DNA from: Prevotella sp.
GTDB lineage: Bacteria; Bacteroidota; Bacteroidia; Bacteroidales; Bacteroidaceae
Assembly: GCA_017410365.1 (NCBI GenBank)
Contig: JAFQQY010000032.1
Location: forward strand, 45,719 to 109,718
DNA length: 64,000 nt
Direction: 5' to 3'
Shown here: positions 4,101-35,740 of the stretch, piece by piece
Layout of the letters: every line of letters starts with the position of its first letter
How positions within the stretch are numbered: position 1 is the stretch's first letter
Translations under genes and position numbers: made by a program
Notes under the pieces: model-generated
The model's database searches: none
The model's input: only the letters and a program-made list of their open reading frames with translations
What the model was told of the DNA's origin: nothing

Positions 4101-5731
4101 GAGAACTGTGCATGACGTGTGCCGTCATATTTCACAATCATAGCATTGCTGCCATAACCGCTACCGCCTGGTGAACCTATCATCTCGCGCTGCAAGTCGC
4201 CATCCCACCATGATGCTTCATGTGGATATGAGGTAGAGCCGCTCTTGATGAGATTTCCTTTACAGTCGTAAAGTCCTTCAAGCAGCGAGAATATCTCATA
4301 ACCCTTGCGACTAGCGTCAACGTCGATACAACGGCCACGGCCTACGTCATAGACAGAAGGCAAATACCATTCCTTGATATGCTCACCTGTGCGAGCATCG
4401 TAGAGCACCTGACCCATCAAAGATGACTGTTGTATGGCAAAGACTTCCATTCCCGGACGGTCTGGGTCTATATCGCTAACGTCAAAGCGGTCGCCATGAC
4501 CGATACCAGCCGAATAGACAAGATTCTTAACTGGGTTCCAGCCGAAACCTCCTTCAAGCAGTTCGTCAATACCGTCGCCATCAGTATCGGCAACACGCAC
4601 CTGATGGAACTCTGCGCAATGAGGTGTTCCATAACTTCTCGCCCATGTCTTGTCATGATGCCAGTTGGCAGCCTTACCACTTGTCCAGTCGTAAGTCCAT
4701 GACAGCATGTAATAATGATGACCATCGCTGTTTCTGCGGTTGTAGCATTCTACAGCCAATGAAGGGTGAACACCATCGAAATAGCAGATAGCAAACTTAG
4801 CACCGAGGAAAGCATACTCTGTACCGTTGTTGTCGTTGTAATAGTCGCCACGGTTGTTACGGCTATACTGGTCGGTACGGTCTTTTATCTCATTATATTT
4901 AAGTTCGTTGCAGTCAATCTCCTCACCTGTCTTACCATCTATTACGGAAATATAGAACGGAGGATTCTTGCTCGACGGACGATAGTCCACAATGCCATCG
5001 CCATCTGTATCGGCCTTACTGCTGCCATTGGCATACTTGCCCCATGTATTGTTTGCCTTATCCCAGAAGCGGCTGCCGTCTGAAGTCTTCATTATCACCT
5101 CGCACTTGCCGTCGCAGTTGATATCGTATGCCAGAACTGCATCGTTCTGACCGGCACAGATATCAACATTTGGTCCTGCATCAACAGTCCAAAGGCATGT
5201 TCCGTCGAGGGTGTAAGCCTGAAGTTTATGCGATGTGTTTGCAAAATCGTTAGAAAGGCGGTCAACAAGTATTGCGTCAAACTCACCGTTGCCATCCAAA
5301 TCCATCGGCCATGCATACTTGCACTTATAGTCGTTCGGATTAAGGACTGTTGTCTCGAAATTGAAATCGAAATAAACGTTGTTGTATGCTTGAGACTTAT
5401 AGAGGAACGGAGCACTCTTATCTCCTTCCACCCCATTGGCAACAACACTCACCGCAAGTTCTGTATTATTGGTTATGCTTGTACTGTAGTTTGTTTTAGT
5501 AATTGGTTCTGCGTTTACTTTAGTGTAATCGGCAGAGCCTTTGCCACGCTTGTAGAGATTGTAGGTACAGTTCTCCGGTTCCTGTGCCAGTTTGCGCCAT
5601 GTAACAAGAACCTTACCGTCACGGTTGACAGCCACAACTGATCTGCCAAGCGGTTGCTGGATTCGCTGCGCCAACATGCATGAAGGCAGCAAAGCCATCA
5701 AAAGCAAAATAATAGTAATTCTTTTCATCAT
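1181..5731 (-). CDS. Rhamnogalacturonan lyase (PL11) fused to autotransporter-type repeats
   Basis: A 1516-residue secreted protein. After a signal peptide (about 1-21; LLPSC could also be a weak lipobox) comes a PL11-type eight-bladed propeller to about residue 635. It carries several Asp-rich calcium loops (DLDGNGEFD, DINCDGKCE, DTDGDGIDE, DITGDWREE) as in rhamnogalacturonan lyases, which cleave the RG-I backbone by beta-elimination. Residues about 700-1350 are glycine- and threonine-rich strands resembling autotransporter-associated beta-strand repeats (for example GKTVVSEGTL, GKTIINEGTL, YVNGGTLQL). The end (SGISGI... GLQSGVYLINGRKV) resembles a sorting tail. Ordinary PL11 enzymes are roughly 600 residues, so the second half is extra. 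Exo or endo mode cannot be decided by eye. Confidence 0.85.
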   Translation of the reverse strand: MMKRITIILLLMALLPSCMLAQRIQQPLGRSVVAVNRDGKVLVTWRKLAQEPENCTYNLYKRGKGSADYTKVNAEPITKTNYSTSITNNTELAVSVVANGVEGDKSAPFLYKSQAYNNVYFDFNFETTVLNPNDYKCKYAWPMDLDGNGEFDAILVDRLSNDFANTSHKLQAYTLDGTCLWTVDAGPNVDICAGQNDAVLAYDINCDGKCEVIMKTSDGSRFWDKANNTWGKYANGSSKADTDGDGIVDYRPSSKNPPFYISVIDGKTGEEIDCNELKYNEIKDRTDQYSRNNRGDYYNDNNGTEYAFLGAKFAICYFDGVHPSLAVECYNRRNSDGHHYYMLSWTYDWTSGKAANWHHDKTWARSYGTPHCAEFHQVRVADTDGDGIDELLEGGFGWNPVKNLVYSAGIGHGDRFDVSDIDPDRPGMEVFAIQQSSLMGQVLYDARTGEHIKEWYLPSVYDVGRGRCIDVDASRKGYEIFSLLEGLYDCKGNLIKSGSTSYPHEASWWDGDLQREMIGSPGGSGYGSNAMIVKYDGTRHAQFSKESNWATHTGWANRPAFMGDITGDWREEVILAKQNAETSTGLVGYSTNIETNYSFYTLQEDPHYRLDCTGRGYYQAPNTSFYLGGDMPYPPLPPTMVTDLRWANGTSWSASGTGFTSFDQTTAQNYADGKTVVFDLSGSNAQQISIDGTLKPKAVYMMVPREHDYTFGGSGTLAGEMELWKSMIGTATFNNNLDYTGKTVVSEGTLCVNGKIAGPVSLRAKGTLSGNAVLNGGIDFEGALNYEGCRLMPVGTDGVMTFNKDLTLPGNVYVEVNAADGKSGKLLVNGNLTLTGENTFTVNQTDIAEGNYVLAECTGTLTADASKILTLGLVGVNYEIKVTDKQIVLAVSASRAPAQGVQWTGDETNVWDYKTNNFSYGGSATTFVTNDAVVFNDKSGNRNVTVDEQVVTNGVLFDFDEGTYNFNGNGGISGTGDLTKNGKGEVVMNLQNSDYTGKTIINEGTLTVNNMADGGKASALGAAPATEGYLLMNGGTLKINATNMATDRIITLTDTSTINVFKQGGSLSLKGIVKGSGYLIKDGLGQLNFTYGGNNPFAGIIVKKGIIAQGAWNATFCKTGGNMTLAGGEVHLINMNNSSTRPIFNYVTEVQEGTKSLVKGTTRGAINGSFKGKGELTIISDGVRNDIGANFAAFEGTLNVQGANFRLQSNVTNMSKTNVVMTAGSFIGHYVSNGSGQQAITTSIGSLASASGASDCTLGHSQDSYTIGHNGKSTSFFGLFKAKSIQKVGDGVLTLRTSGSTSPIYVNGGTLQLYNEAFASNPGAVTSGSITVNNGGELTGIGCAYSIVVNKGGLLSAGYNGNIGNLKANGNLILNAGGTIQVKIGASSNDKYKIKGSIKHNGDTLLIVVDAARTLKAGDQITIFNGEGTQSGSYILKTVSPGQNITWDESEFLTTGVLKVVSAETSGISGIISNDVEVDVHTVDGLLIRSNVKYGEALKGLQSGVYLINGRKVMKR

Positions 5732-21760: not shown

Positions 21761-24694
21761 TTAAAGATTTATTTCTTTCTGGAATTTCTTCACAGCCTTT
21801 GCCTGAGCAGCCTTTGAAGAATACTGCTTTGCATAACTGCCTGAAGCATTGCTGTTCAATGGTTCAGAAAGTTCATGAATAGCACAGAATGAAGATGTGT
21901 TAATAGTAGTACCGTCGAACCAGTAGTCACGTGTCATCTTGTTAGACACCTTGCTCTGGTCATTGGCATCGATAACATGTGTTGCTCCGCTGGCATCGGT
22001 GATGTTGATAACACCATTGCCGCCTGAGATAGAAAGTTCGAGAGCCACACCAAGTTCGTCAGAAGACATTGTCTGGAACTTAACAGTCTCACCACTTGCC
22101 ACGCCCTCAAGCTTATTGTCAGCGTAGAGTGCCATTGTCTGGAAGTGATAACGGATAAAGTCGCGGATTGTCATAATCATTGCCAATGCCTTATCCTTGT
22201 CCGCCTGCTCTTCTGGACTTACCTCTTCTGTTTCGTCAGCACCTTCAGCATACTTCTCAAACATAGCACGGATGTCTGTCCAACGTGGAAGTCCCTGAGC
22301 GAATGCCTTATCCATAGCACCATTGTTTGGAGCATAAAGAGTATAGTTGTATGTGTTGAAGAATCTTACATTCTGGTCAAGACAAGCATAATTGCTTGTT
22401 GCGTCCTTCATCTTCTTGCTGTCAAAGATTCTGTAGCGCTGCTGCTGTGACTCCTTGCCAGACTCTGCGGCACCTGCTATACCTGCCCACTCGAGCACGT
22501 CTGCATTACCTTCGCCAAATCCGTCGCAAAGTTCAATGAACTGAGAGAAACGGGCATTATTCTCAAGCAATGTCTTGTAAACACTGTTCTGTGGAGCCTC
22601 GATTATGCGGTCTATACGATAAGCCACACCGTTCTTCTCTTGATAAACTTCTTTAATTACAGGTGCTTCATAACCATTGTCAACATTAAGACCTGTCATA
22701 ACCTTGTTGCCAACCTGTGCACCATCGATGCAAATCTCAGCACCGTGCTTTGTCTTGTAATACTTGTTAGCGCCAAGCTTCTCACCATCATCGAGAATCA
22801 CGGTATGGTAGTTCAAGATGTCAACAAGAAGTGACTTGACAGAAGCTACTGTACCTGCATCTTTAACAACGACACCATTGATAAGGTCTCCGATTTCATT
22901 TGTCTCTGGGTCATACTTATAACGCTGGTAGTTAAGGTTCTTTCCGTCATAGAAGAACTTTACAGCCTGTGCATAGTGGTTAGCACCCTGTGCTACTCCA
23001 CCCTTAACCACGTTGTCGTTTTCATCAACAGACAAACCTGGATAGCGTGGCAGTGTTGCTGGATCTACATAGAACTTGCTCTGGAAAGCAGAGTCTTCAG
23101 GAATAAAGAATGCGAAGTTAGCATTCATTGCCAACAGATAGTACTGGAAGTCAACGAGCAGCAACTCACGGTCCTTAACAGCCCAACGCATAACGCGCAT
23201 GTCTGGATATGTTGAAACAGGAGCCATAACAGACTGATACTCGTCTGGTGCTATCATCTGGTTAAGAACGTAGATAACACCATTGTTAGCTATCTTAATG
23301 TCATACTTGCCATCAGTTGTCTTCTTCAGCATGTCAACAGTAAGACCCATGTTCTCACTGGCGTCATTGGTAACTGTCGGGAACTTGCTTGGCACGTTCT
23401 TGGCAAACGAAGTCTTCTGAAGGTTCTTAACGAATGATGTCAAAATGCCAGGAGCCTTCTTGTGAAGAGAGTCAAGGTTCTCAGCAAGATTCTCCTTAGT
23501 GTTAGCCTTACCTGCGGCACCATAAATATCAATAAGGTACTCACCGTGACCACCTGGCAAGAAATAATTCTCAAAAGCCTTGTCGTCTGGAACAAACATT
23601 GCACCTATATCAACGATTGTCTCGTCGTAATCAACGTTATTTGTCACCTGTGGATAATAACCGTTCCATCCTGGGTCGTAGGTCAACACGTTTGGAACAG
23701 GCACGTTGTCTGGAGACATTGCCAACTGTGAGCCACCCTGTGAATAACCGCTGAAGTAGCGTACCTGATAGATAGAGTCGATAAGCGGCTGGTTGTTCTG
23801 AAGAGCCCAGCTATTGTAGTTGTCTGTTGTTGTCTTATCAAAATAAGGTGCATTGAAATAGTCGAGCACACGACTGAAAAGACTTGTCTCAGAGTCAGCC
23901 TTCAGCATCTGGGGCATGTTGCCCGGAGGAACGAGCACGTCTTCCATCTGGTGAACATAACCGTTCTGGCAGGTAAGACCGTCAGGACGCTTTGTTATGA
24001 TCTTGTTGCTGAAGATATACGCCATTCCGTCTGTATATTCAGAACCTGTAATTACGGCAAAGTCGCTCTCTGGACCCTTGGTTGTAATACTGTTGCCCAG
24101 CATATAGTCGCGGGTAAGGTGAACCATCATAGGACGGGTATTGTCGCTAACCACATAGATACCCTTGTCATGATACTTCTCCCACAACGGGTTGTACGCC
24201 GGCATACCCTGTCTGTTAGGTATAAACTGGATAGAGTCAATTACGCTGACAGCTGTTGGATGCTTGATGGCCATACCATGCATCACTTCAGTAGCACCAC
24301 TACTTACGTTAGGCAACATGCTAACGAGCAGTGCATTGTCGAGCATTGAAGAGTAAAGAAGGAGTTTCTTCTGTGACTCTGTAAGCTGATCGTATGAGCT
24401 TACTCCCCAGTTGTTGTTACTAAAGAATCGTTCAAACGCCTCGTCGTTGGCTGGGAATACTGTCTTACTACCAGTTCGGTCGAGAATCTCGGCATAGTCG
24501 AGGTCATCAACCAAACGGAGGTAAGTGTTGAACGTTCCCGTCAACGCCTCTGGGTTTGGATTCTTCAATTCCTGATAGATGCTGCTACCAAGCCATGAAG
24601 GCTTTTCATCAGCAGGCACTTCCTCGTTTTTCTCAACGCAAGAAGTCATCAATCCCGTTAATAACAGGGATAGAATGAAGATTGATTTTTTCAT
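21761..24694 (-). CDS. Large multi-FAS1 lipoprotein, first gene of the SusCD operon
   Basis: A 977-residue lipoprotein with lipobox LMTSC (Cys19). About four FAS1-like units can be traced by their conserved strands: about 36-270 (KTVFPANDEAFERFF, NGYVHQMEDVLVPP), about 275-490 (NNGVIYVLNQMI), about 495-710 (NANFAFFIPEDSAF) and about 715-930 (FSQFIELCDGFG, YTLYAPNNGAMDKAF). It is the largest of three FAS1 proteins in this operon and is likely an extended surface glycan-binding or adhesion protein (inference). No exact TAnnTTTG box is found upstream; the nearest candidate is a degenerate TTTATTTTGC near 24757. Confidence 0.8.
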   Translation of the reverse strand: MKKSIFILSLLLTGLMTSCVEKNEEVPADEKPSWLGSSIYQELKNPNPEALTGTFNTYLRLVDDLDYAEILDRTGSKTVFPANDEAFERFFSNNNWGVSSYDQLTESQKKLLLYSSMLDNALLVSMLPNVSSGATEVMHGMAIKHPTAVSVIDSIQFIPNRQGMPAYNPLWEKYHDKGIYVVSDNTRPMMVHLTRDYMLGNSITTKGPESDFAVITGSEYTDGMAYIFSNKIITKRPDGLTCQNGYVHQMEDVLVPPGNMPQMLKADSETSLFSRVLDYFNAPYFDKTTTDNYNSWALQNNQPLIDSIYQVRYFSGYSQGGSQLAMSPDNVPVPNVLTYDPGWNGYYPQVTNNVDYDETIVDIGAMFVPDDKAFENYFLPGGHGEYLIDIYGAAGKANTKENLAENLDSLHKKAPGILTSFVKNLQKTSFAKNVPSKFPTVTNDASENMGLTVDMLKKTTDGKYDIKIANNGVIYVLNQMIAPDEYQSVMAPVSTYPDMRVMRWAVKDRELLLVDFQYYLLAMNANFAFFIPEDSAFQSKFYVDPATLPRYPGLSVDENDNVVKGGVAQGANHYAQAVKFFYDGKNLNYQRYKYDPETNEIGDLINGVVVKDAGTVASVKSLLVDILNYHTVILDDGEKLGANKYYKTKHGAEICIDGAQVGNKVMTGLNVDNGYEAPVIKEVYQEKNGVAYRIDRIIEAPQNSVYKTLLENNARFSQFIELCDGFGEGNADVLEWAGIAGAAESGKESQQQRYRIFDSKKMKDATSNYACLDQNVRFFNTYNYTLYAPNNGAMDKAFAQGLPRWTDIRAMFEKYAEGADETEEVSPEEQADKDKALAMIMTIRDFIRYHFQTMALYADNKLEGVASGETVKFQTMSSDELGVALELSISGGNGVINITDASGATHVIDANDQSKVSNKMTRDYWFDGTTINTSSFCAIHELSEPLNSNASGSYAKQYSSKAAQAKAVKKFQKEINL

Positions 24695-24830
24695 AAATTG
24701 TTATTAGCTAATTATTTGTTTTAATTTCATCATTACAGTTTGCGTAGTTTAAAATGCAAAATAAATAAAAAAAAATGAAACACACAAGAAAATTAACTAA
24801 TATCTTAAAAAATCTTCAGTTTCCTTTAAT

Positions 24831-24903
24831 ATAGACAGACATTAATTTCAGCAACAAATTATATTGTTATTCTCTATGCATGACTGAAATTATTATAATT
24901 TTA
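24831..24903 (-). repeat. Repeat-family copy E (partial, inverted)
   Basis: Read on the minus strand, this segment aligns by eye with the left part of copy B (29633-29720): an ATTATAATAATTTC/TGTC module, a short spacer, an AACAATnTAATTTGTTG core and a closing ATGTCTGTCT. It sits directly beside copy D in the same orientation. Non-coding. Confidence 0.65.
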
Positions 24904-24910
24904 TATTCCC

Positions 24911-25150
24911 AATAAAGACAGACATTTATTTAAACAACTAATTAAACGAATTAAACGAATTTTTAAAAACAAACTATAATTAGTTAAATTTGTGTAATTA
25001 GTGGTTTAGGCATTAAGAATATAAATTAATTCGTAAAATTAGTATAATTCGTTGTTTTAAAACATAAAGACATACACATGTTTCAATACCTCGCTTAATT
25101 AGTTGTTTATTATAAGACAAAAATTATTATAATTATATTAATTTCTGTCA
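24911..25150 (-). repeat. Repeat-family copy D (inverted)
   Basis: Its minus-strand sequence shares with copies A and C the opening GACAGAAATTAATATAATTA module, the segment TTGAAACATGTGTATGTCTT, and the following AACAACGAATTA / AATTCGTTTAATTAG hairpin wording. It is more diverged in the middle. Together with copy E it fills the 530-bp gap between the operon promoter side and the terminator of the next gene. Its orientation is opposite to copies A, B and C. Confidence 0.75.
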
Positions 25151-25174
25151 ACCAAGAAATTTCAGTAAGACTAA

Positions 25175-25208
25175 ACAAAAAGGGCTGACGTTTCCGCCAG
25201 CCCAAATT
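25175..25208 (-). terminator. Rho-independent terminator of the 25228-28080 gene
   Basis: GGGCTG (25182-25187) pairs with CAGCCC (25198-25203), with CG pairs extending the stem. On the minus strand the hairpin is followed by TTTTTG. It begins 20 bp past the stop codon. Confidence 0.85.
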
Positions 25209-25227
25209 ATTTAGTACTTAATGTTTA

Positions 25228-28080
25228 TTACTTAACAATGTACTTCTTACCATTGATGATGTAAAGACCCTTCTGGAGACCCTTCAGCTCGTTGCCAAGC
25301 TTAACACCAGTGATAGAGTAAACACCCTTAGCGTTTGCATCAAGAACTGTTTCTGCCTCAACACCTTCGATACCTGTAACAAGGATATTCAGACGATCCA
25401 TTGTCTCCTTCAGACGGTGGATAGTATTCATCTTCTGACCAAGAGTTGTTGCTGCAGCTGCATCGTTAACATAGCGCTGGAGCTTGATAGCCATCCACTT
25501 GTTAACTTCAGCCTGCGCCTCCGGCAATGCCAACAGTGCGTTTGCCTGAGCAACATAGTTAGCCAAATCTGCTGTGATATCAGCATCGTACTTAGCTGTT
25601 GCACCACCATACTTGAGGTCAACACCACCGAAGCCCCAAATACTAGCACCATTCTTGTTCACCCACTCTGGACGAGACTCGAAACCAAGTTCAACCTCTA
25701 CAGGATCAGTTCCTTCCTTAACATAGTAAACAGAGAATTTACTTGGGCGATACAAGTCATTAAGATACTGACTGTGTGTCAGCGTTGAGTCTGGAGCACC
25801 GTTAGGACCTAAGAAGATTCTATGCTTAGAGTTATCAAATGTTGTATCGATAGAGACACCGGTCTCTTCATCAGCAATGATAGTGAAGTATCCAACATAC
25901 TTGTTACCCTCACTTGCACCATAAACAAATGCGCTCATTTCATAAACACCCTCTGTTTCAAGAGTTACAATCTGACTAACCTTTGCACGTGGACAAACAG
26001 TATTACCACGCCATCCGTTCACATAACCACGACCAAATTCTTCACGACCTTCAACGTTCCATGTTGCATACTTCCAGTCCTGATTACGCATGTTACCACC
26101 ATTAACACCAGTCCAACCGTTCTTTGGCAGAGCCTTGTTTGTCTGACCTGTGAAGTCAGGAGCTGCAATTGTCTCTGGAGCAGGAGCTGCATAAGAAGCA
26201 CAAGTCTTCTTGAACTGAACTTCCTTAACTGTCATATCTGCAATAGCTGCCTCGAACTTTGCTTTCTCTTCTGCTGCAGGAATTGAGTCAAGCTGAGATA
26301 CAGATGCCTTCAAAGCTTCGGCAGTTGCAATAGAAGCCTCATAGTTGGCTCTTGCATTAGCTGCTGCTGCTGCATAAAGTTCGTTAACGATCTCACCTCT
26401 GTGGTAGGCAATCGCCTCAGCAATGTCAGCGATAGGCTTGTTCAAGGCGTAGAGGTTCTGAATAGCTGTACGCATAGCAGACATCTGGTTTTTGATTTCT
26501 GTTGGCAGTGCATTCTGCTCCTCAGTCAAATCAACAGTAAGAGAAACATTGTTACCCTCAGCGTCAACAACAGAATAAGTAGAGTTCAGATACTCCTCAA
26601 AAGTTGGGATAGCAGCGATAAGAGCATTCATACCCCATGGATATTCTGCAGTCTTGGCAGAAACAGTCTTGGCTGAGTCAATCATCACCTTGAGAGCGTT
26701 CTGTTGAGTAGCGATATCCTTTACAAGCTGCTCAAGAGCAATCTGTGCACCTGACACACCAATCAGATAAAGTTCGGCATTCTGGAAACGGAAAGCACCA
26801 CCACCAGTACCTACTTCATAACCTGGGAAGCGGAAACCAGCACGGAGAGTATCACCTTCTTTTACGTCAGCGATAACGAAATGGCGATCATAGTAACGAT
26901 TAGGAAGAGTATCTACAAGAACTGAGTCTGTTCCGATGAAAATCTTACCACCTACAGCTAATGTATTGTAGTCTGGGTGATAGTAACCACCGTTAACCTT
27001 AGTCTTCATATACTTCTCAGCCATAACCTCAAGTGAGAAGAGATACTTACCTGCCTTCAAACCTGCCTTTTCAATCATACATGTACCATCGAGCAAATCG
27101 TAGCTACCCGGATATGCAAGGTTACCAGCTGTTGCATCTTGAGCATGTCCCCAACGCATTGTTGTACCAGAGAACTTCCAGTCACCCTGAGAAGTCTTGC
27201 CGTCAGCATTGTTGAATTTAGGCCATGAAGAGATGTCGCCATAAGAAATGTAGCCCAACATATTGGCAGAGTTGCTAGAGAAGAAGAGTTCTCTGTTTGG
27301 ATAGTAGTTCTGAGCCATGAAGTCTGTAATACCAGCAATGCTACCCGGATCATTGAAATCGATACCAAAGCTTGTATCACCAACCAATGCAGCTTCAATA
27401 GCACCAACTACATCAACCAAATCACCCTGAACCGGGAACAAGTCCGTCATCGCCATCAGAGACTTAACATAAGCTAGTTCACGCTCGAGAGGACGAGTGT
27501 CATAGAGCTGGGCAATCTCGTGAATCTCGAAATTTGTAACCATTGTGTTGGCTGCAATCTTATTGAAATACATAACAAGATATTCGCCTGTTGAAATAGT
27601 TACAGTGTCAACAAACTGCTTCCACTCTGTACTGAAAGACTCAATGTCGTTTACCTGACGTGTGTTTGTTGTCAGAGAAGCATCGTTGTTTACATAGAAT
27701 GCAGCATAGTTGGCATCAGCAGAAGTATTTGCTGTGGAACCAGACACTTCACCCTTAATCCAATAGCTGATAGAATAAGTACCTGCATTCAATGGGAATA
27801 CACGAGAAAGAACGTTACCGTCTTCTGCACTAAGGCTCATAAGAACTGCTTCGCCGTTAGGACCTGCACCTGGTGTGTACTGCCAAGCCAGAGCACTAAC
27901 TTCTGTACCTTCCTGGTTTGTCCAACCTGCTGTACCATCTGCGAAGTTACCATTAGTAACGAGGTTTTCACCTGTCACCTTGAATTTAGCGGCTGTAGTA
28001 TAAAGAATGTCATTTACCTCATAGGCATTGGCATTCATCATACCCATAACAGCCAAAACTGAAAGTAGTAATTTCTTCAT
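25228..28080 (-). CDS. Large secreted protein of unknown function with sorting-like tail
   Basis: A 950-residue protein with a signal peptide (about 1-19, ANAY). Residues about 35-190 (LVTNGNFADGTAGWTNQEG, TYSISYWIKGE) look like a CBM4/9- or galactose-binding-type jelly-roll. A second similar region is seen near 660-820 (VYEMSAFVYGAS). Between and after them are alanine-rich helical stretches (about 450-640 and 840-910). The end, TGIEGV... GLQKGLYIINGKKYIVK, matches the tail of other secreted proteins in this window. No catalytic motif is recognised. It is monocistronic, with its own promoter and terminator, and is flanked by oppositely oriented repeat copies. Carbohydrate binding is inference only. 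Confidence 0.7.
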   Translation of the reverse strand: MKKLLLSVLAVMGMMNANAYEVNDILYTTAAKFKVTGENLVTNGNFADGTAGWTNQEGTEVSALAWQYTPGAGPNGEAVLMSLSAEDGNVLSRVFPLNAGTYSISYWIKGEVSGSTANTSADANYAAFYVNNDASLTTNTRQVNDIESFSTEWKQFVDTVTISTGEYLVMYFNKIAANTMVTNFEIHEIAQLYDTRPLERELAYVKSLMAMTDLFPVQGDLVDVVGAIEAALVGDTSFGIDFNDPGSIAGITDFMAQNYYPNRELFFSSNSANMLGYISYGDISSWPKFNNADGKTSQGDWKFSGTTMRWGHAQDATAGNLAYPGSYDLLDGTCMIEKAGLKAGKYLFSLEVMAEKYMKTKVNGGYYHPDYNTLAVGGKIFIGTDSVLVDTLPNRYYDRHFVIADVKEGDTLRAGFRFPGYEVGTGGGAFRFQNAELYLIGVSGAQIALEQLVKDIATQQNALKVMIDSAKTVSAKTAEYPWGMNALIAAIPTFEEYLNSTYSVVDAEGNNVSLTVDLTEEQNALPTEIKNQMSAMRTAIQNLYALNKPIADIAEAIAYHRGEIVNELYAAAAANARANYEASIATAEALKASVSQLDSIPAAEEKAKFEAAIADMTVKEVQFKKTCASYAAPAPETIAAPDFTGQTNKALPKNGWTGVNGGNMRNQDWKYATWNVEGREEFGRGYVNGWRGNTVCPRAKVSQIVTLETEGVYEMSAFVYGASEGNKYVGYFTIIADEETGVSIDTTFDNSKHRIFLGPNGAPDSTLTHSQYLNDLYRPSKFSVYYVKEGTDPVEVELGFESRPEWVNKNGASIWGFGGVDLKYGGATAKYDADITADLANYVAQANALLALPEAQAEVNKWMAIKLQRYVNDAAAATTLGQKMNTIHRLKETMDRLNILVTGIEGVEAETVLDANAKGVYSITGVKLGNELKGLQKGLYIINGKKYIVK

Positions 28081-28143
28081 AATTACGTTAGTTTTAATTG
28101 TTAAAAAATAGATATTTGTTTAAATAATGATTAGTCTTGTCTG

Positions 28144-28151
28144 CAAAGATA
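28144..28151 (-). promoter_or_regulatory. -7 promoter box (TATCTTTG) of the 25228-28080 gene
   Basis: Exact TAnnTTTG match on the minus strand, 63 bp before the start codon. No -33 TTTG is visible at 19-21 bp. Confidence 0.5.
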
Positions 28152-28262
28152 ACACAATTTAATGAAGAATGAAGTACGAAGAATAAACAATCACACATCC
28201 GTTAAACATAATTAACATTTATTTAACTTAACCTTTTGGCATACTTGATTGGTTGTGGTATA

Positions 28263-28562
28263 GGACAGAAATTAATATAATTATAATAATTATTGTCTTA
28301 TAAACAACACCACAACGTATTGAAACATGTGTATGTCTTTATGTTTTAAAACAACGACGTGTTGATGAGATAAATTCCTGAATTTATAAAAAACAACGAA
28401 TTACACGAATTTGACGAATTAAATTATATATTTTAAAATAATTCGTTTAATTAGTGTAATTCGTTGTTGATATAAACGACTGTCTTTAAAAACTCGTTTA
28501 ATTAGTGTAATTATTCGCTTTGCTCATCAACTCGTCGTTGTTTAAATTAATGTCTGTCTTTA
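28263..28562 (+). repeat. Repeat-family copy A, nested palindrome
   Basis: An AT-rich element beginning GGACAGAAATTAATATAATT and ending near ATGTCTGTCTTTA. It contains an outer inverted repeat (28351-28368 with 28524-28541, one mismatch in 18) enclosing an inner one (28393-28406 with 28454-28467, perfect over 14 and extendable). The 19-bp direct repeat TCGTTTAATTAGTGTAATT occurs twice. By eye it is almost identical to copy C. It ends about 25 bp from the stop of the first cassette. Confidence 0.85.
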
Positions 28563-28586
28563 AGACGAAACGAATTAAATAGTTTA

Positions 28587-28823
28587 TTATTCAACTTTGG
28601 CTTTAAGTAATTCGTTTTGTAAGAAAGAGTAGATGTAACCTGGGCTTTGATAATACAAACCGGTTGAATCGTCTTGCAACCGAAGAAATGTTTCGGAGGT
28701 ATATAACACTTCTATAGCATCCTGTACATCAAGATTTAAATCTTCAATCAAACAGCAAGCCAATTCTGCAGTCAGTTCATCTTTCATCAACTGAATTTGC
28801 TCTGGAGTAAGTTTTTGGTTCAT
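28587..28823 (-). CDS. Small helical protein, third gene of cassette 1
   Basis: A 78-residue acidic, helical protein with no signal peptide. Key stretch: DAIEVLYTSETFLRLQD followed by TGLYYQSPGYIYSFL. The counterpart in cassette 2 (30727-30933) has ALDLFYTSKVCELLHD at the same place, so they form one family. Its start codon overlaps the DUF3990 stop by 4 bp, implying coupled translation. A small partner encoded with an ADP-ribosyltransferase-like protein suggests antitoxin or chaperone (inference). I do not recognise a named domain with confidence. Confidence 0.7.
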   Translation of the reverse strand: MNQKLTPEQIQLMKDELTAELACCLIEDLNLDVQDAIEVLYTSETFLRLQDDSTGLYYQSPGYIYSFLQNELLKAKVE

Positions 28824-29302
28824 ATTTTTAATAAATGTCGTAAAGCAAGTTCCGTACCGAAAAAATACTGAAAAGTAATTCCTTTTGCATATTTCAATTC
28901 CTCTACAAGACGAGACAGAGATATAACCCCACCTTCATAACGTCGAAGTTGGTATGTTACCCCATCATCTGCTATAGGTCCATAAACAATATCATAGTCA
29001 TGCACAGGATGTTCTGCATTCCTATTTCTATTTGCCAAGACAAAAGTGGCCCATTCTTCTGAATAGTCTGGATAGCACAATACATTTAAAGAAGAGGAAT
29101 GCATTAATGTTTCATCAAACAAGAATTCACTAACACAGGCGACTCCTTCTTTTGTCTGGTTTACTTTTTGTATAGCCATATCCAATGCTTGCTCTCTGGC
29201 ATCAGACAAATAAAAACCTCGTCCAAAATCCTTGAAAGGTTTAGAATGTACCAAATCAGGTACCTCAATCATAACATTAGAACCATGATATAATTTTATC
29301 AT
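28820..29302 (-). CDS. DUF3990 protein, ADP-ribosyltransferase-like (cassette 1)
   Basis: A 160-residue cytosolic protein. It shows the DUF3990 layout, which resembles small ADP-ribosyltransferases: YHGS at the N-terminus (His6), DFGRGFYLSD with Tyr31 near residue 30, a central YDIVYGPIADD, and near the end FQYFFGTELAL with Glu151, together an H-Y-E-type set. It overlaps the preceding DUF3791-like gene and the following small gene by 4 bp each, a compact operon of toxin-antitoxin type. Enzymatic activity, target and toxicity are inference. The base composition is more AT-rich than the surrounding pectin genes. Confidence 0.75.
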   Translation of the reverse strand: MIKLYHGSNVMIEVPDLVHSKPFKDFGRGFYLSDAREQALDMAIQKVNQTKEGVACVSEFLFDETLMHSSSLNVLCYPDYSEEWATFVLANRNRNAEHPVHDYDIVYGPIADDGVTYQLRRYEGGVISLSRLVEELKYAKGITFQYFFGTELALRHLLKI

Positions 29303-29523
29303 TTCAGTTGCCCTCCATTATTAATACAAACCTCTGTCAATACATCTATGGTATCAGGGAAAGACAAAGTGTGCAACACACCATAATGCTGAACAAAATG
29401 TTCTAACCCTTTATAGCGCTTAAGATATGCATATGCTTGATTTTGCCTTATGTCAAAACGCTTAGAAAATTCTGTCACAAGGGCAACCGTATATCCAATT
29501 CTATTCTTATCTTCTCTTGACAT
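29299..29523 (-). CDS. DUF3791-like small protein, first gene of cassette 1
   Basis: A 74-residue protein resembling DUF3791: an N-terminal helix (RIGYTVALVTEFSKRF), then NQAYAYLKRYKGLEHFVQHY and the HTLSFPDTIDVLTEVC segment. DUF3791 proteins are commonly encoded next to DUF3990 proteins. It is the first gene after a good promoter and is translationally coupled to the DUF3990 gene by a 4-bp overlap. It is a candidate antitoxin or autoregulator (inference). Confidence 0.75.
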   Translation of the reverse strand: MSREDKNRIGYTVALVTEFSKRFDIRQNQAYAYLKRYKGLEHFVQHYGVLHTLSFPDTIDVLTEVCINNGGQLK

Positions 29524-29541
29524 AACTACAATTTATATCTG

Positions 29542-29571
29542 CAAATATACATATTTTTTATTACCAAACAA
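29542..29571 (-). promoter_or_regulatory. Promoter of cassette 1 (TTG-N19-TATATTTG)
   Basis: On the minus strand TATATTTG (29542-29549) is preceded by TTG (29569-29571) at 19 bp, the normal Bacteroidota spacing. It lies 18 bp before the start codon of the first gene. The bases after the box, CAGATA, resemble those of the cassette 2 promoter (CAGAAT). Confidence 0.65.
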
Positions 29572-29632
29572 CAAATTAAAGGTCAATTACAACAGGAATT
29601 GGATGAAATTTAAGATTTTTAATTGACATATA

Positions 29633-29892
29633 GACAAAAATTATAATAATTATAATAATTTCTGTCAGGCATAAAGATAAACAATGTAATTTGTTGTTAA
29701 CAATAAATGTTTGTCTTTATGTAAAAAACAACGACGTGTTGATGAAATAAATTCCTGTATTTATATAAAAACAACGAATTACACAAATTTGACGAATTGA
29801 ATTATATGTTTTAAAAATAATTCGTTTAATTAGTGTAATTATTCGCTTTGCTCATCAACTCGTCGTTGTTTAAATAAAAGTCTGTATTTATG
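29633..29892 (+). repeat. Repeat-family copy B, between the divergent cassettes
   Basis: It has the same order of modules as copies A and C, but the segment between the two TCGTTTAATTAGTGTAATT direct repeats is missing and only one of them remains. The outer arms (ACAACGACGTGTTGATGA and TCATCAACTCGTCGTTGT) are retained. The opening module differs (GACAAAAATTATAATAATTA) and matches copy E better. It occupies nearly the whole space between the two cassette promoters. Confidence 0.85.
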
Positions 29893-29937
29893 GCAAATAA
29901 ACAAAGTTAGTTTTTATGTCATTTCAATTTAATGTTG

Positions 29938-29945
29938 TATATTTG
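29938..29945 (+). promoter_or_regulatory. -7 promoter box (TATATTTG) of cassette 2
   Basis: Exact TAnnTTTG match on the plus strand, 23 bp before the start codon at 29969. It has the same TATATTTGCAGA wording as the cassette 1 promoter. No clear -33 element. Confidence 0.6.
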
Positions 29946-29968
29946 CAGAATAATAAGCAAAATAAAAT

Positions 29969-30232
29969 ATGAATCATTCAGGCTTGATGTCCGATAATGG
30001 ATATAAATACCCCACAGAAGAACAATTACGCAATATATTTGCATGTTCATGTGTTGAGTCTGCGGCTCGACGCTTAGGCATTTCGCCTACAGAAATGTAT
30101 TCGAGAATGAAACGTGTGAATTTATTTAACGAACTTATTTATCCTTGTTATGACACCTTGCACACTCAGAGTAGAGAAACTATAACCGAGGATATTATTG
30201 AGGCATTGGAAATAAGAGAAAAGAAATTATAA
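29969..30232 (+). CDS. DUF3791-like small protein, first gene of cassette 2
   Basis: An 87-residue protein homologous in layout to the 74-residue protein of cassette 1. It has AARRLGISPTEMYSRMKRV followed by YPCYDTLHTQSRETITEDI, where the HTQ...I..DI stretch is typical of DUF3791. The stop is 12 bp before the DUF3990 gene. Candidate antitoxin or regulator (inference). Confidence 0.72.
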   Translation: MNHSGLMSDNGYKYPTEEQLRNIFACSCVESAARRLGISPTEMYSRMKRVNLFNELIYPCYDTLHTQSRETITEDIIEALEIREKKL

Positions 30233-30244
30233 TATAAAAAAAGA

Positions 30245-30724
30245 ATGATAGTTTATCACGGTAGTACAATAGTAGTTGACAATCCAATTGCAGCTGCAGG
30301 CAGAGAAAGACTTGACTTCGGCAAAGGTTTTTACATAACTGACATTCAATACCAGGCGGAGGCTTGGGCTAAACGCATGCATCGAATAAGGCAAAAGCCA
30401 GGAATAGTAAATGTTTATGAATTAGATATGGATTTAATCAAAAACAAATTTCGCTATTTGGGTTTTAACAATTATGATAACGAATGGTTACAATTCATTA
30501 TTTCCAACAGAACAGGTTTATGTGCTGAAAGTTTTGATGTTATTGAAGGAGGTGTGGCAAACGACAGGGTGGTTGACACAATAGAAGCATATATGGCAAA
30601 TTTGATGCCTTTGGATTTGGCTTTAAAAGAACTATCAAAACACAAACCTAACAATCAGATTTGCATTTTATCTCAAAAGGCAATAGATTCTTGTTTACAT
30701 TTTGTAAAACATTATAATATATAA
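30245..30724 (+). CDS. DUF3990 protein, ADP-ribosyltransferase-like (cassette 2)
   Basis: A 159-residue paralogue of the cassette 1 protein. His5 in YHGST, Tyr30 in LDFGKGFYITD and the central FDVIEGGVANDRV are conserved. The C-terminal motif reads QICILSQKAI, so the residue aligned with Glu151 of the other copy is Gln144. If that Glu is catalytic, this copy may have altered or no transferase activity. The two proteins are clearly diverged (by eye well under half identical), so this is an old duplication or two acquisitions. Confidence 0.75.
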   Translation: MIVYHGSTIVVDNPIAAAGRERLDFGKGFYITDIQYQAEAWAKRMHRIRQKPGIVNVYELDMDLIKNKFRYLGFNNYDNEWLQFIISNRTGLCAESFDVIEGGVANDRVVDTIEAYMANLMPLDLALKELSKHKPNNQICILSQKAIDSCLHFVKHYNI

Positions 30725-30726
30725 TT

Positions 30727-30933
30727 ATGATAAGTGATTTATTAATGTGGAATAAGATTGGACGCATTGTTACTATTTTGTCTGAGCGTCTTAACATATC
30801 TTCTGAACATGCACTGGATTTGTTCTATACATCAAAAGTATGTGAACTTTTACATGACCCCGAATCACTTCTTTATACATTCAGTGATTATTATATCGCT
30901 GACGATGTTCTTAGGGAAATGCATTCTGCATAA
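30727..30933 (+). CDS. Small helical protein, third gene of cassette 2
   Basis: A 68-residue protein beginning 2 bp after the DUF3990 stop. SSEHALDLFYTSKVCELLHD and the following tyrosine-rich LLYTFSDYYIADDVL match the third protein of cassette 1 in position and pattern. No domain name assigned. Candidate partner or antitoxin of the DUF3990 protein (inference). An overlapping frame from 30758 is a shadow. Confidence 0.7.
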   Translation: MISDLLMWNKIGRIVTILSERLNISSEHALDLFYTSKVCELLHDPESLLYTFSDYYIADDVLREMHSA

Positions 30934-30943
30934 GAACAATGCC

Positions 30944-31224
30944 GGACAGAAATTAATATAATTATAATAATTATTGTCTTATAAACAACACCAGGATGTG
31001 TTGAAACCTGTGTATGTCTTTATGCAAAAAACAACGACGAGTTGATGAAATAAATCCCTGTATTTATATAAAAACAACGAATTACACGAATTTGACGAAT
31101 TGAATTATATGTCTTAAAATAATTCGTTTAATTAGTGTAATTCGTTGTTGTTATAAACGACTGTCTTTAAAAACTCGTTTAATTAGTGTAATTATTCGCT
31201 TTGCTCATCAACTCGTCGTTGTTA
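30944..31224 (+). repeat. Repeat-family copy C, nested palindrome
   Basis: By eye nearly identical to copy A and in the same orientation. The outer arms 31030-31048 and 31205-31223 are perfect over 19 bp (AACAACGACGAGTTGATGA and its complement). The inner arms start at about 31074 and end at about 31147. It fills the gap between the convergent ends of cassette 2 and the second PL11 gene and could also act as a transcription barrier there. Confidence 0.85.
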
Positions 31225-31237
31225 AAAATGAAATATT

Positions 31238-34200
31238 TTACTCTACAACAAGCTTCATTGTGCCTGAAGCAACCTTCGCGCGTACCTTTATAATATATGT
31301 ACCCTTTTGTGCGCCAAGTGACTTGACAGCATTCTGAAGAGCAGACATAGAAGATGTTACTGTGCCTACCTTCTGACCGCCAAGAGTATAAACCTCGGCA
31401 GAAACCTCTTCATCAGCAGCAATGCCATCAATGCCAGTCGGGTCTTCAACAATCTTGAGTACACCAGTCTTCTGCAAAAGTTCAGTTGTATCCCACTTCA
31501 GTCCTGCAGGAAGTTCTGGCAGGTCATATGTAGGTGTGCCCTTGAAGGTTGAGTTCACTGTCCAAAGAGTGAAGCTGTCTCCAGCCTTTGGTGTATAGTC
31601 ATCAAGCAAAGTCACTTTTACGGTACCATTCATTGTCAGCAACTGCGGATTGAGAGTAGAATTCTTTGTTGCAGAAATCAGGAAGTTTACAGTAGCACCA
31701 GCATTAACATTCATCAACGCCTTTGTTTTGATAACGCCCGGAGTCTCACTGTACATGCTGCGCGGAGTAACCTGTGCCTTATCGGTGAGCAAGAGAGAGT
31801 TGAGCAATCCCTGACCAGCCACATGACCAGTACCGTTTACTGTTGTTGCATAAGCACCATGAACAAGCGTTGTGGCATCAGCCTGGTTGAACATGAATGT
31901 TCCTTCGCTGATAGTCATCTGAGCCTGAACCTTTCCGAGAGCAATAACACGCATTGTACCAGCACCGGTCTTCTTGATATGAGATGTAGAGTTGATGCCA
32001 AGAGTGAAGTCACTGCCATTGCCACCCAATACATACATACCAGAACCGGCGAGAGTACCGCCGCCAGAAACTGTTCCAACCTGAACAGTCTTGCCATTAT
32101 TGTCAAATGTCACATCAGTAGGAACGTTAAGAGTTGCATTAGGAAGACCATAGTTATTGTCCCATGCAAACCACGGATCATAGCTGCCACGCTTTGCAAG
32201 ACCAACCTGAACAGTTCCCTCAAACTCGCTCCAGTTGCCCTGGAAGTAGTTGCGCACACCAGCAGCATAAACCTTGAATGTACCGGCACCTGTCAGTGTA
32301 CCTGTGTAGTTGCAACGTGGGTCAGCATAGAAAGTACCAGTCTTGCCTTCTGGCACGTAGAAGTTGGCGCGGTTGGTAGTATAAGAACCTTCGCCGTTAG
32401 GGTCGTTCAGTGTTCCGTTCTGGAATTCCACCGTTGTCGGCAACTGAGTCACACCACCCGACTCTGAAGCATTTACTGTTCCGCCCGCAATAATCAGTTT
32501 ACCAACCGTATTGTTTGCACCGAGAGCAAGAGTACCTGTACCCGTCTTTGTGAGTTCAGCACCAGAAGCAGAACTTCTGACACCTGTGTTCAATGTGAGT
32601 GTTGAGCCTGCTGCTATCTGCAAGGTACCGCCGTTACGTCCCACATATATTGGCTGTGCCGATGTAGCAGTCTTTGTGTTTGCCAATATACCGCCATTGT
32701 CAAGATAGATAGCACTCTTTACAGAACCGAGACCTCCAAATTCCTGACCAATTTCATTAGGGAATACTGTAACAGTCATGCGACCGCCGTTGATATATGT
32801 ATTGCCTACCCTGTTCTCGTTGCTGATAGATACCACGCCTGCACCGTTCTTCTGAATGTCAGCACCGCCAACGATGCTGTCGCCACTGATGCTCAACGAC
32901 TTCTTCTCATTGTTGAAGATGATTGATGCAGGAGCAACATTGCCAACAACCTTGATTGAAGTAGCAACGGCATTGTCGTCGAATGTAACCTCAGAACCAG
33001 GAACGAATACAACAGACTCTGTTGTTCCTGTGTTAATGAAGTTCTGTGTCTTGTCAACATCCCAGTTGCCATCTGTACTACCAGTCCAAGTCACGTTGCC
33101 ACCCTTATAGTTGAGAATCTCAACATATAGCTTGCCGCCTTCAAAGAGAAGAGTTGCCTTCTGGCCTGTAAGACCCTTTACAACAATATCCTCCAGATTG
33201 CCGTCAATAGCACCAATCTCACCAATCAGATACTTGCCGTCAGCCAACTTACTCTCACCATCCTTAGTATTAGCAACAAATGTAATGACAGGAGTAGAGA
33301 GTTCAGGACCGTTCTCCCAGTTCTTCTTCTCTATTTTCAGAACATTCGCCTTAACCACGTCGGCTGACGCATCAGCACCGAAGAGGTCGATTCTGAGCTG
33401 CGAACCGAAGTTAAGAATCAGCGAGTCGGTGGTTATATTACCCTTGTTCTTCTCGCCGCCTGGGATGATAGTCGCATTATAATCTGCCTGAATAGACTTC
33501 TTGAACACACCGCCGTTAGAGATGAGCGTAGTATGACGGTTGAGCCATACGCGGCTGCCTTCCATAGTTCCGTCGAAACTCAGCTTACCAGCCCACACGT
33601 CAGTGTTACCTGTATATTTCTGAACAACGTTTGGCAGAACCAGTGTACCGTCGCCCTGCTTCACAAGGCGCATGCTACCTGCAAAGCCGCCGCCTGTCAG
33701 AGTGTGGGTATAATACTCGTAGATGATTGTTGGATTCTTGCCGCTTGTACCATTCACGTCAGTACCCTGTACCCATGACGGAGCATTGTCTATATATATA
33801 TAAGGTGTAGCACCGTCAGCCACGCTGACAGTCATATCGTTTGTCTCGCAAGTGATAATCTGCTTGTCGTTGGCATCGCTGCCGATAGTACCATTGTTCT
33901 TCACCTCTGTGCGTCCTGTCATGATGAGAGCAGGAGGAGCCACGGTTATTCCCTCAAGCCTACCGAGGAAGTAGCTTGTGTGAGGCGGCTGATTGTAACC
34001 GTTCATCTGCCATACCACAGCATTGCGGTACTGATGGTCGTGCCACAGAGTGTAGTTGCGCCACTGGGTAGCTGTTGTCGTGGTATAGATGCGCACCTTA
34101 TTGTCGGCAGTACGCATTACCACCTCCTCGCGCCAGTCACCGAAGATGTCGGCCTGCAAACAAGGAGTACCCTTTGTGTCGTTATTGGTCATAGAACCTT

Positions 34201-35740
34201 CGAGAGTTGCTATTACGCCAGTACCATACTTGATGATGACACCGGCAGTATTCTTTCCATTAGCATAGTTGAATGTCTCCTCGCAGAGGTCACCATCCCA
34301 ATAGATACGCATGTTCTGTGATATATTGTTCTTTGTTCCACCAGGAATGCCGCTGTAAGTTACGGAACTGATAAGGTTGCCGTCGCGTGCAGTCGAACCC
34401 TGAGCACCAGGATAGAGGTCGGTAAAGTTACCCATCATGCTTCGGCCGTCGTCTGTTCCACCTGCATAGCGGTAAAGAATCTTTCGTGTAGTAGCATCGC
34501 AGTAGTTGTTTGAAGGTGCATTCTCATTACATGCAAAGAACTCCTGACCATGACGATATGGGTCGAAGTCATTGAGATGCATAGCGTCACCATGACCAAG
34601 ACCTGTTGTTGCCAATCCTCTACCGTTGTCATCGATAGTCATACCGCCGAATACTATTTCATCGCGACCGTCCCAGTCAACGTCACCGATGCAATAGTTG
34701 TGATAACCCTGACCGAACCAAGGACCGCCGGTATTGCAGTTCCAACGCCAACGAACAGAAAGCTTGTGAGTGGCAGGATCCACATCATATGCAATCATCT
34801 TATGGCGCGTATAGATACCGCGGGCAAGGAAGATGCTTGGCTTGCGTCCGTCAAAATACGGCGCACCGAAGAAATATTTTGATGAGCGGTGGCCGTAGCC
34901 GTCGCCCCACTGCTGCTCAAGATTACCCTCACCCGGTTCGAGGCGCACCAGCGGATAGTCCATCACCTGATAAGGCTTTCCTGTTTCACCGTTCATATAG
35001 AGCAGGAACTCGGCACCGTCATGTACGAACCACTGTCCGCTCTCGCCTGGACGATAGTTCTTGCTTGGGTCACCAATGGTCTGCGTCGTACCGTCTGCCA
35101 TGTGGATTACAGTACCGTCAGCAGCACGGAAGATGCACTCTGCCTTTCCGTCCATATCCCAGTCGTATGCAGCAATGTTGATTTCGTTATTCTGGAAGTC
35201 GCCGAGGTTAGGGCCACAATCAATCCACCACAGTTTCTTTCCATTCAACTTATATGCCTCAACAACGGTATATTTGCCACCGACACCGCTGTTCCAGTTG
35301 TCAAACTTGATAATCAGCTCCGGTTCGCCGTCACCGTCGAGGTCGGCAGCTGTAGCATCGTTAGGAACAAAGGTGTTTGTCATCGTGCCATGGTCCATCT
35401 CCAATTCGAGATATGGCTTTGCCAGAGGGGTTGCCTCTTTCGACTTTGCCTGCTCTACCCCACGGACAACCGCTGTAACGGTGTATTTGCTTGTGAGCGA
35501 GCCGCCAGTATCACGATAGTTTGATACGGAAAGTGGTTGGTCGTTCACCTTCACGCCATCACGATAGAGATTATATGTTACGTCATAATACTCTTCGCCT
35601 AAGATACGCCAACTGCAATATACTCCTCCATTAACCTTAACGGCCACAAGACCGCGGTCAATGACATCGACAGTGCGCTGCGCCCAGGCACCAATCGCCA
35701 TCACTGCAAGCAGTGACAATAGCAACAATCTTTTTCTCAT
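31238..35740 (-). CDS. Second rhamnogalacturonan lyase (PL11) fused to autotransporter-type repeats
   Basis: A 1500-residue secreted protein with a signal peptide about 1-20 (GAWAQ). The PL11 propeller covers about 22-600 and begins VDVIDRGLVAVKV, with calcium-loop motifs DLDGDGEPE, DMDGKAE, DVDWDGRDE and DIFGDWREE and the NQPPHTSYFLG closing strand. Residues about 680-1315 are autotransporter-associated strand repeats (VKQGDGTLVLP, QKNGAGVVSIS, TKTGTGTLALG, KKTGAGTMRVI). The C-terminal TGIDGI... YTLGGQKV is a sorting-like tail. Same architecture as the gene at 1181-5731 but clearly diverged in sequence, so probably different linkage or chain-length preference (inference). Confidence 0.87.
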   Translation of the reverse strand: MRKRLLLLSLLAVMAIGAWAQRTVDVIDRGLVAVKVNGGVYCSWRILGEEYYDVTYNLYRDGVKVNDQPLSVSNYRDTGGSLTSKYTVTAVVRGVEQAKSKEATPLAKPYLELEMDHGTMTNTFVPNDATAADLDGDGEPELIIKFDNWNSGVGGKYTVVEAYKLNGKKLWWIDCGPNLGDFQNNEINIAAYDWDMDGKAECIFRAADGTVIHMADGTTQTIGDPSKNYRPGESGQWFVHDGAEFLLYMNGETGKPYQVMDYPLVRLEPGEGNLEQQWGDGYGHRSSKYFFGAPYFDGRKPSIFLARGIYTRHKMIAYDVDPATHKLSVRWRWNCNTGGPWFGQGYHNYCIGDVDWDGRDEIVFGGMTIDDNGRGLATTGLGHGDAMHLNDFDPYRHGQEFFACNENAPSNNYCDATTRKILYRYAGGTDDGRSMMGNFTDLYPGAQGSTARDGNLISSVTYSGIPGGTKNNISQNMRIYWDGDLCEETFNYANGKNTAGVIIKYGTGVIATLEGSMTNNDTKGTPCLQADIFGDWREEVVMRTADNKVRIYTTTTATQWRNYTLWHDHQYRNAVVWQMNGYNQPPHTSYFLGRLEGITVAPPALIMTGRTEVKNNGTIGSDANDKQIITCETNDMTVSVADGATPYIYIDNAPSWVQGTDVNGTSGKNPTIIYEYYTHTLTGGGFAGSMRLVKQGDGTLVLPNVVQKYTGNTDVWAGKLSFDGTMEGSRVWLNRHTTLISNGGVFKKSIQADYNATIIPGGEKNKGNITTDSLILNFGSQLRIDLFGADASADVVKANVLKIEKKNWENGPELSTPVITFVANTKDGESKLADGKYLIGEIGAIDGNLEDIVVKGLTGQKATLLFEGGKLYVEILNYKGGNVTWTGSTDGNWDVDKTQNFINTGTTESVVFVPGSEVTFDDNAVATSIKVVGNVAPASIIFNNEKKSLSISGDSIVGGADIQKNGAGVVSISNENRVGNTYINGGRMTVTVFPNEIGQEFGGLGSVKSAIYLDNGGILANTKTATSAQPIYVGRNGGTLQIAAGSTLTLNTGVRSSASGAELTKTGTGTLALGANNTVGKLIIAGGTVNASESGGVTQLPTTVEFQNGTLNDPNGEGSYTTNRANFYVPEGKTGTFYADPRCNYTGTLTGAGTFKVYAAGVRNYFQGNWSEFEGTVQVGLAKRGSYDPWFAWDNNYGLPNATLNVPTDVTFDNNGKTVQVGTVSGGGTLAGSGMYVLGGNGSDFTLGINSTSHIKKTGAGTMRVIALGKVQAQMTISEGTFMFNQADATTLVHGAYATTVNGTGHVAGQGLLNSLLLTDKAQVTPRSMYSETPGVIKTKALMNVNAGATVNFLISATKNSTLNPQLLTMNGTVKVTLLDDYTPKAGDSFTLWTVNSTFKGTPTYDLPELPAGLKWDTTELLQKTGVLKIVEDPTGIDGIAADEEVSAEVYTLGGQKVGTVTSSMSALQNAVKSLGAQKGTYIIKVRAKVASGTMKLVVE

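Follow-up and report, generated by a model that had tools for sequence, protein, structure and literature searches.

Here we describe a 2,965-bp segment (28263..31227, its edges set by length) within 64,000 nt of a Prevotella sp. genome (assembly GCA_017410365.1, contig JAFQQY010000032.1, positions 45,719..109,718 of the forward strand), hereafter the window, from whose first letter coordinates are counted. The segment runs repeat A, cassette 1, repeat B, cassette 2, repeat C, and its two three-gene cassettes, correctly spotted by a first-pass annotation of this DNA, are members of the known candidate family PDC-M13. We propose, with a probability of roughly 0.55 on the sequence evidence assembled below, that such cassettes are three-part toxin-antitoxin modules that move as cassette units, and that the window gained its two in separate events at a foldback repeat that was itself multiplied.

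Gene content and joint inheritance of the cassettes

Cassette 1 lies on the minus strand and comprises gene 1, encoding a DUF3791 protein of 74 aa (29299..29523), gene 2, encoding a DUF3990 protein of 160 aa (28820..29302), and gene 3, encoding a protein of 78 aa (28587..28823), joined by 4-bp overlaps. Cassette 2 repeats this order on the plus strand, with products of 87 aa (29969..30232), 159 aa (30245..30724) and 68 aa (30727..30933) separated by gaps of 12 and 2 bp; the commonest spacing among the loci fetched is the 4-bp overlap. All six open reading frames (ORFs), overlaps and gaps stand where the first-pass annotation had placed them, on opposite strands and in the same order, and its family names were borne out by hidden Markov model searches: Pfam DUF3990 matches both middle proteins (E 1.6e-42 and 4.3e-46) and Pfam DUF3791 both first proteins (E 1.9e-17 and 2.1e-19). 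The DUF3991 of its title corresponds to no Pfam match in the six proteins. The PDC-M13 models of PADLOC-DB match all six, gene 1 as PDC-M13A, gene 2 as PDC-M13B and gene 3 as PDC-M13C in both cassettes, an assignment that reflects the best model matches of adjacent genes rather than PADLOC's own calling rule. Each cassette reads, by these family matches, antitoxin-like, toxin-like, antitoxin-like, and the small partner genes adjoin and couple to the toxin-like gene as in type II toxin-antitoxin systems. A helix-turn-helix reading of DUF3791 drew single weak matches and is not claimed.

The third gene appears to be a remote, diverged relative of DUF3791. A profile alignment of gene-3 with gene-1 proteins gave a probability of 93 and an E-value of 3e-7 (92.8 in an earlier version built from other sequences), and DUF3791 was matched at E<=0.01 by 25 of 47 gene-3 proteins, the best at 2.3e-10; in the window, the gene-3 protein of cassette 2 reaches DUF3791 at 5.6e-4, below the curated cut-off, and that of cassette 1 has no Pfam match of its own. 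Natural fusions join the genes in every pairing: genes 1 and 2 in locus L275, genes 2 and 3 in Bacteroides oleiciplenus (locus L104), and genes 3 and 1 on pBF9343 of Bacteroides fragilis and on one plasmid from Phocaeicola, where both domains share a protein of 149 aa encoded before DUF3990. Although each type counts one or two examples, every gene pair is thus fused somewhere, as would be the case if the three products formed a single complex, a possibility that these few cases suggest. Scanning viral sequences with the fusion protein of pBF9343 returned no match.

The full layout, with gene 1 before and gene 3 after, surrounds 186 of the 236 DUF3990 ORFs of the loci examined: 6/6 in the window's own genome, 100/132 in loci of the genus, 73/83 in loci from named genomes and 7/15 on viral contigs, 13 of the 186 sitting in loci later set aside as duplicates. 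The 80 named-genome loci were the best 80 of 557 relatives and the genus loci were likewise the best-scoring; the set is therefore not a random sample. DUF3990 exceeded the cut-off in 111 of 200 genomes of the genus, with up to seven copies each among the matches listed, and the six copies of the window's own genome are therefore not extreme. In four loci (L316, L318, L128 and L142) the DUF3990 gene is broken into two ORFs, probably through decay or an error in the sequence.

By two measures the three genes are inherited jointly. The distances of the three genes correlate over the 186 cassettes (Mantel r 0.80-0.84, a level reached in 0 of 500 permutations), and two subtypes set by a DUF3990 motif (31 P, 121 G and 34 unassigned) agree with the relationships of genes 1 and 3 in 143/143 and 146/147 nearest neighbours, respectively. 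Cassette 1 belongs to subtype P and cassette 2 to subtype G, and they are 25% identical; neither is therefore a recent copy of the other, and the possibility that they are copies of each other was rejected.

Several features suggest that DUF3990 is an ART (ADP-ribosyltransferase)-like protein. In an alignment of 67 DUF3990 proteins, the most distant of which is 21% identical to the first sequence, the invariant positions are H5, D24-F25-G26, G28-F29-Y30, R89, D98, G102 and Q138, of which H5, Y30 and Q138 would, by motif order, fit an ART triad H-Y-Q. The His-Tyr-Glu-like motif of the first-pass annotation is thus kept in its first two residues, the third being an invariant Gln and not Glu. A HY-[E,D,Q] triad is given for the ART group of CmdT in PMC11618068, DUF3990 is placed in Pfam's ART clan in PMC7955679, and one Rhs toxin domain is reported in the literature on DUF3990 and DUF3791. 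Among the 67 relatives, three match PARP (best 3.8e-5) and seven match ART-PolyVal (best 1.2e-5). One ORF of 300 aa (L121 2390-3292) carries the N-terminal part of DUF3990 followed by the motif HPFQDGNGQTGR, which looks Fic-like.

From these features we infer an enzymatic activity, toxicity, its neutralisation and a trigger: DUF3990 would be an NAD-using ADP-ribosyltransferase toxin with the triad H-Y-Q, the two proteins of DUF3791 kind encoded just before and after it would jointly bind and restrain it, and loss or diversion of one partner, for instance during phage infection or upon loss of the module, would leave the toxin free. Three results weigh against this part of our proposal. For the two DUF3990 proteins of the window, the match to ART-PolyVal is no better than E ~0.1; solved structures searched by profile yielded no ART, the two hits (E 0.0055 and 0.0056) being one phosphodiesterase, and nothing relevant came from searching such structures with one sequence and three profiles; and 50 of the 236 DUF3990 ORFs, including the split genes and five distant viral ones, lack the full layout under the search rules used.

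The first-pass annotation had taken the pair for toxin-antitoxin or phage-defence modules in which the third gene was an additional partner. An ART-like toxin with small partners fits the sequence; the third gene is a second DUF3791-like protein, not a new kind of partner. This bears on another explanation, possible though on the unlikely side, in which each cassette would be a phage-defence unit of the toxin-antitoxin-chaperone type and its third protein a phage sensor like CmdC of CmdTAC. Such a unit shares with the cassettes its three genes and an ART-like effector, to which PMC11618068 ascribes the same HY-[E,D,Q] triad, and PADLOC lists the layout as a defence candidate. CmdC, however, is SecB-like according to that study, whereas the third protein here is DUF3791-like, and no SecB-like or chaperone family appeared in Pfam scans of the six window proteins and 47 gene-3 relatives; moreover, bracketing repeats (see below), common to HigB-type modules, fit plain addiction modules equally well.

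A repeat-bounded insertion between two pectin-degradation genes

The segment lies between a gene for a 950-aa protein (25228..28080, minus strand), which has no Pfam match at E<=0.001, and a gene whose 1500-aa product holds rhamnogalacturonan lyase family 11 domains (31238..35740, minus strand). Among 29 loci of relatives, 17 hold both genes, adjacent and separated by 102-402 bp; in the other 12 the second gene is not within the fetched stretch. The gap in the window measures 3,157 bp, or 192 bp without A..C, a value that falls within the range of the relatives, and A and C are thus, by length, the apparent outer limits of a ~3 kb insertion, the relatives' intergenic DNA being compared by length and not aligned base by base. 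The insert has a GC content of 31% against 44% for the window, and no repeat or cassette gene was found at E<=1e-3 in the flanking-gene stretches of the 29 relatives. That the relatives carry the same gene pair without cassettes makes the placement in a pectin region, which the first-pass annotation had thought undescribed, look incidental. In the right flanking protein, a PATR (passenger-associated-transport-repeat) match follows the lyase domains in the one 1500-aa chain.

Direct repeats left of, between and right of the cassettes are present as first annotated, all on the plus strand: A at 28263..28546, B between the divergent cassettes at 29632..29874, without ~50 bp found in A and C, and C at 30944..31227, which stops 10 bp short of the lyase gene's 3' end. 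A and C are 93% identical over 284 bases by blastn; over the shared columns of a four-way alignment that includes some flanking bases, identity is 90% for A/C, 83% for A/B and 82% for B/C. A fourth copy, D (~24913-25149, minus strand), lies in the next intergenic region; it is reversed, diverged (62-70% to A, B and C over shared columns) and has no cassette. Repeat C folds back strongly whichever strand is read (z -9.8 and -9.4), and an 18-bp end motif, allowing <=3 mismatches, occurs six times in the window against 0.09 expected. A search with Rfam at gathering thresholds returned nothing over 24600-31400.

For the order and mechanism of insertion, we infer that two cassettes of different subtypes would have been acquired independently at a foldback repeat between the pectin genes, and that this repeat would have been multiplied during the acquisitions to give A, B and C. 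Had one ancestral copy been kept, the gap would have measured ~477 bp, above all 17 relatives (maximum 402), and no repeat copy is seen in their 17 empty sites; the repeat may therefore have arrived with the cassettes instead of being multiplied target DNA, which counts against our proposal. This objection is weakened by the distance of the relatives, the nearest being only 57% identical in the flanking protein, and an ancestral gap with one repeat copy may still have existed.

At this locus A and C limit the insertion, and the repeat link seen by the first-pass annotation holds to that extent; the repeat is no hallmark of the cassette family. Its full length occurs in the window's own genome at this locus only (A, B, C and the reversed, diverged D), and with three candidates scored per genome it had no match at E<=1e-15 in 199 other genomes of the genus. 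Three of the four other cassette sites of the own genome show no repeat match at E<=1e-3, and the fourth, on contig C9, shows weak partial matches only, some 500 bp upstream. On these grounds the repeat was rejected as a companion of the family. The site on C9 belongs to a defence-type cluster of ~6.4 kb (L414 9349-15744) that holds the end motif (2 mismatches), Abi_2, AbiEii and the DUF3990 cassette.

The palindromic core of the repeat is scattered genome-wide, often in arrays, one of which, on contig C16 of the own genome (L049 about 2002-2626), is a tandem array with a ~97-98-bp period after a gene end. A second repeat array, made of a different repeat, lies on contig C22 of the own genome (L412 5724-10135). 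Two direct copies of ~400 bp (95% alike) and a third, partial one surround two AAA_14-DUF4143 genes that are mutually 21.6% identical, and a PIN gene and one small ORF lie on the left side; the end motif is found beside all three copies with 1-2 mismatches, and in two of them a stretch aligns with ~70 bp of repeat C at 81-82%.

It is conceivable, if rather unlikely, that the repeat is the moving part, that is, a foldback element resembling miniature inverted-repeat transposable elements (MITEs) or repetitive extragenic palindromic (REP) elements, which would have carried or trapped cassettes between its copies with the help of an unseen transposase. The cassette-free copy D, the genome-wide core palindrome and the end-motif repeats around two unlike genes on C22 speak for it. 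Yet the full-length repeat was found at the window locus only, cassettes elsewhere move without it, neither a target-site duplication nor a clean terminal repeat is established, and the own genome, 89% complete and the only one searched in this respect, gave no match to the Y1 transposase family, on which ground an origin of the repeats as REP elements from a RAYT transposase was rejected. The C22 array lends weak support to the view that the repeat is a landing site for unlike cargo. The broader claim, that the foldback repeat serves as landing and duplication site for unrelated selfish cassettes and so builds repeat-cassette arrays with no integrase in the array, of which the DUF3990 array and the C22 array would be two, is speculative and, in our judgement, quite improbable.

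Apparent movement of cassettes in other genomes

Comparisons between genomes are consistent with the cassette being a self-contained mobile unit of ~0.9-1.1 kb that would encode no transposase of its own. Among pairs of cassettes >=80% alike in DNA, with enough flank and with duplicates removed, shared DNA was confined to the cassette in 19 of 24 pairs (11 independent groups), extended to one side in three and to both sides in two. Among conjugative Bacteroides plasmids, pBF9343, which carries the two-gene form, has counterparts with empty sites in B. faecis BFG-554 and B. fragilis Q1F2, and in the first comparison the edges of the alignment blocks lie 39 bp ahead of the first ORF and 10 bp beyond DUF3990. 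The DNA of cassette 1 had no match among plasmids, and no usable relative sharing the site was found when filled and empty versions were sought near L304. On plasmid Q1F2-p2 (L418 1324-2417), a Txe/YoeB addiction module sits in the intergenic region of the empty DUF3990 site; that it had replaced the DUF3990 module was rejected, the alignment indicating that the site is empty and that YoeB was inserted further upstream.

Bracketing was scored as direct repeats of >=25 bp and >=80% identity within 700 bp, with intergenic-bounded intervals as controls. After removal of 18 cassettes with short flanks and the 13 in duplicate loci from the 186, bracketing repeats were found around 30 of 155 cassettes versus 7 of 137 controls (p 1.7e-4), or 28/153 versus 6/134 without the window; at >=40 bp the figures were 19/155 and 6/137 (p 0.013). 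One repeat copy lies <=20 bp from the cassette in 16 of the 30 bracketed cases. An earlier, looser test, superseded by this matched one, had given 13 loci among 78 cassettes, against 18/426 shifted intervals and 1/107 window intervals. At the C9 copy of the own genome, the bracketing repeat is a duplicated gene end. In locus L109 the cassette lies between a tRNA-Arg gene (3529-3605) and a copy of its last 58 bp (4766-4823), an arrangement that resembles integrase attachment sites.

Other small modules served as a further control. HigB-type modules were bracketed as often as the cassettes (7/25), and bracketing was found in 3/27 AbiE intervals, after five of 30 and three of 30, respectively, had been dropped for short flanks; a partner ORF was recognised by a crude rule in 12 of the 25 HigB and 25 of the 27 AbiE intervals. 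The HigB result led us to reject direct repeats as a feature special to DUF3990 cassettes, bracketing being therefore a habit of small selfish modules and not DUF3990-specific. It also tells against a particular tie between repeat and cassette in our proposal, as do the 125 of 155 cassettes without a bracketing repeat by this test and the insertion on pBF9343, which lacks a long duplication.

We consider it unlikely that the bracketing repeats are chance ordinary intergenic repeats or duplicated promoters with no role in insertion. Some of them hold, by eye, a promoter-like box before the neighbouring gene, controls are also bracketed, and the plasmid insertion proceeded without repeats; against this stand the excess over controls, the closeness of one copy to the cassette in more than half of the bracketed cases, and the position of A and C at the outer limits of the added DNA in the window. 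That DUF3990 is here a regulatory or inactive ART and not a toxin, as Gln in place of Glu at the third triad position might suggest, is improbable, given that none of H, Y and Q varies among the 67 proteins, that both small partners are usually present, and that on the conjugative plasmid pBF9343 a single small ORF separates DUF3990 from a zeta toxin gene.

Relation to known systems

The family is common in the genus, yet no experimental test of a DUF3990/DUF3791 module was found in the titles and abstracts of the literature searched, some papers being covered in part, nor was any paper found there for the Pfam accessions of the two families. The kinship of genes 1 and 3, the pairwise fusions and the sharp-edged movement lend themselves to cheap, direct tests of which product neutralises the toxin and of insertion without an own transposase, and the locus offers a concrete case for how such units move without one.

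DarTG combines an ART toxin with a partner; no match to the macrodomain, its antitoxin type, was found among the six window proteins. Restriction-modification units are reported in PMC3874152 (citing Nobusato 2000 and Furuta 2010) to insert with long, variable target duplications of ~100 bp. They resemble the cassettes in being selfish-type units with no known mobile element and with direct-repeat bracketing, and differ in their cargo; in the window, moreover, a foldback of ~285 bp stands three times around two cassettes, and no empty site with one copy was seen.

Within PADLOC, PDC-M10B-type proteins hold two DUF3791-like domains in one chain, as on pBF9343, and the closest counterpart is PDC-M13. 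The three-gene layout itself had already been described, since PADLOC-DB holds models for all three genes and a rumen-genome survey counted 3,324 PDC-M13 loci (PMC13356809). To the candidate listed by PADLOC, the present analysis adds the kinship of genes 1 and 3, the two subtypes and the apparent movement of the cassette as a unit.

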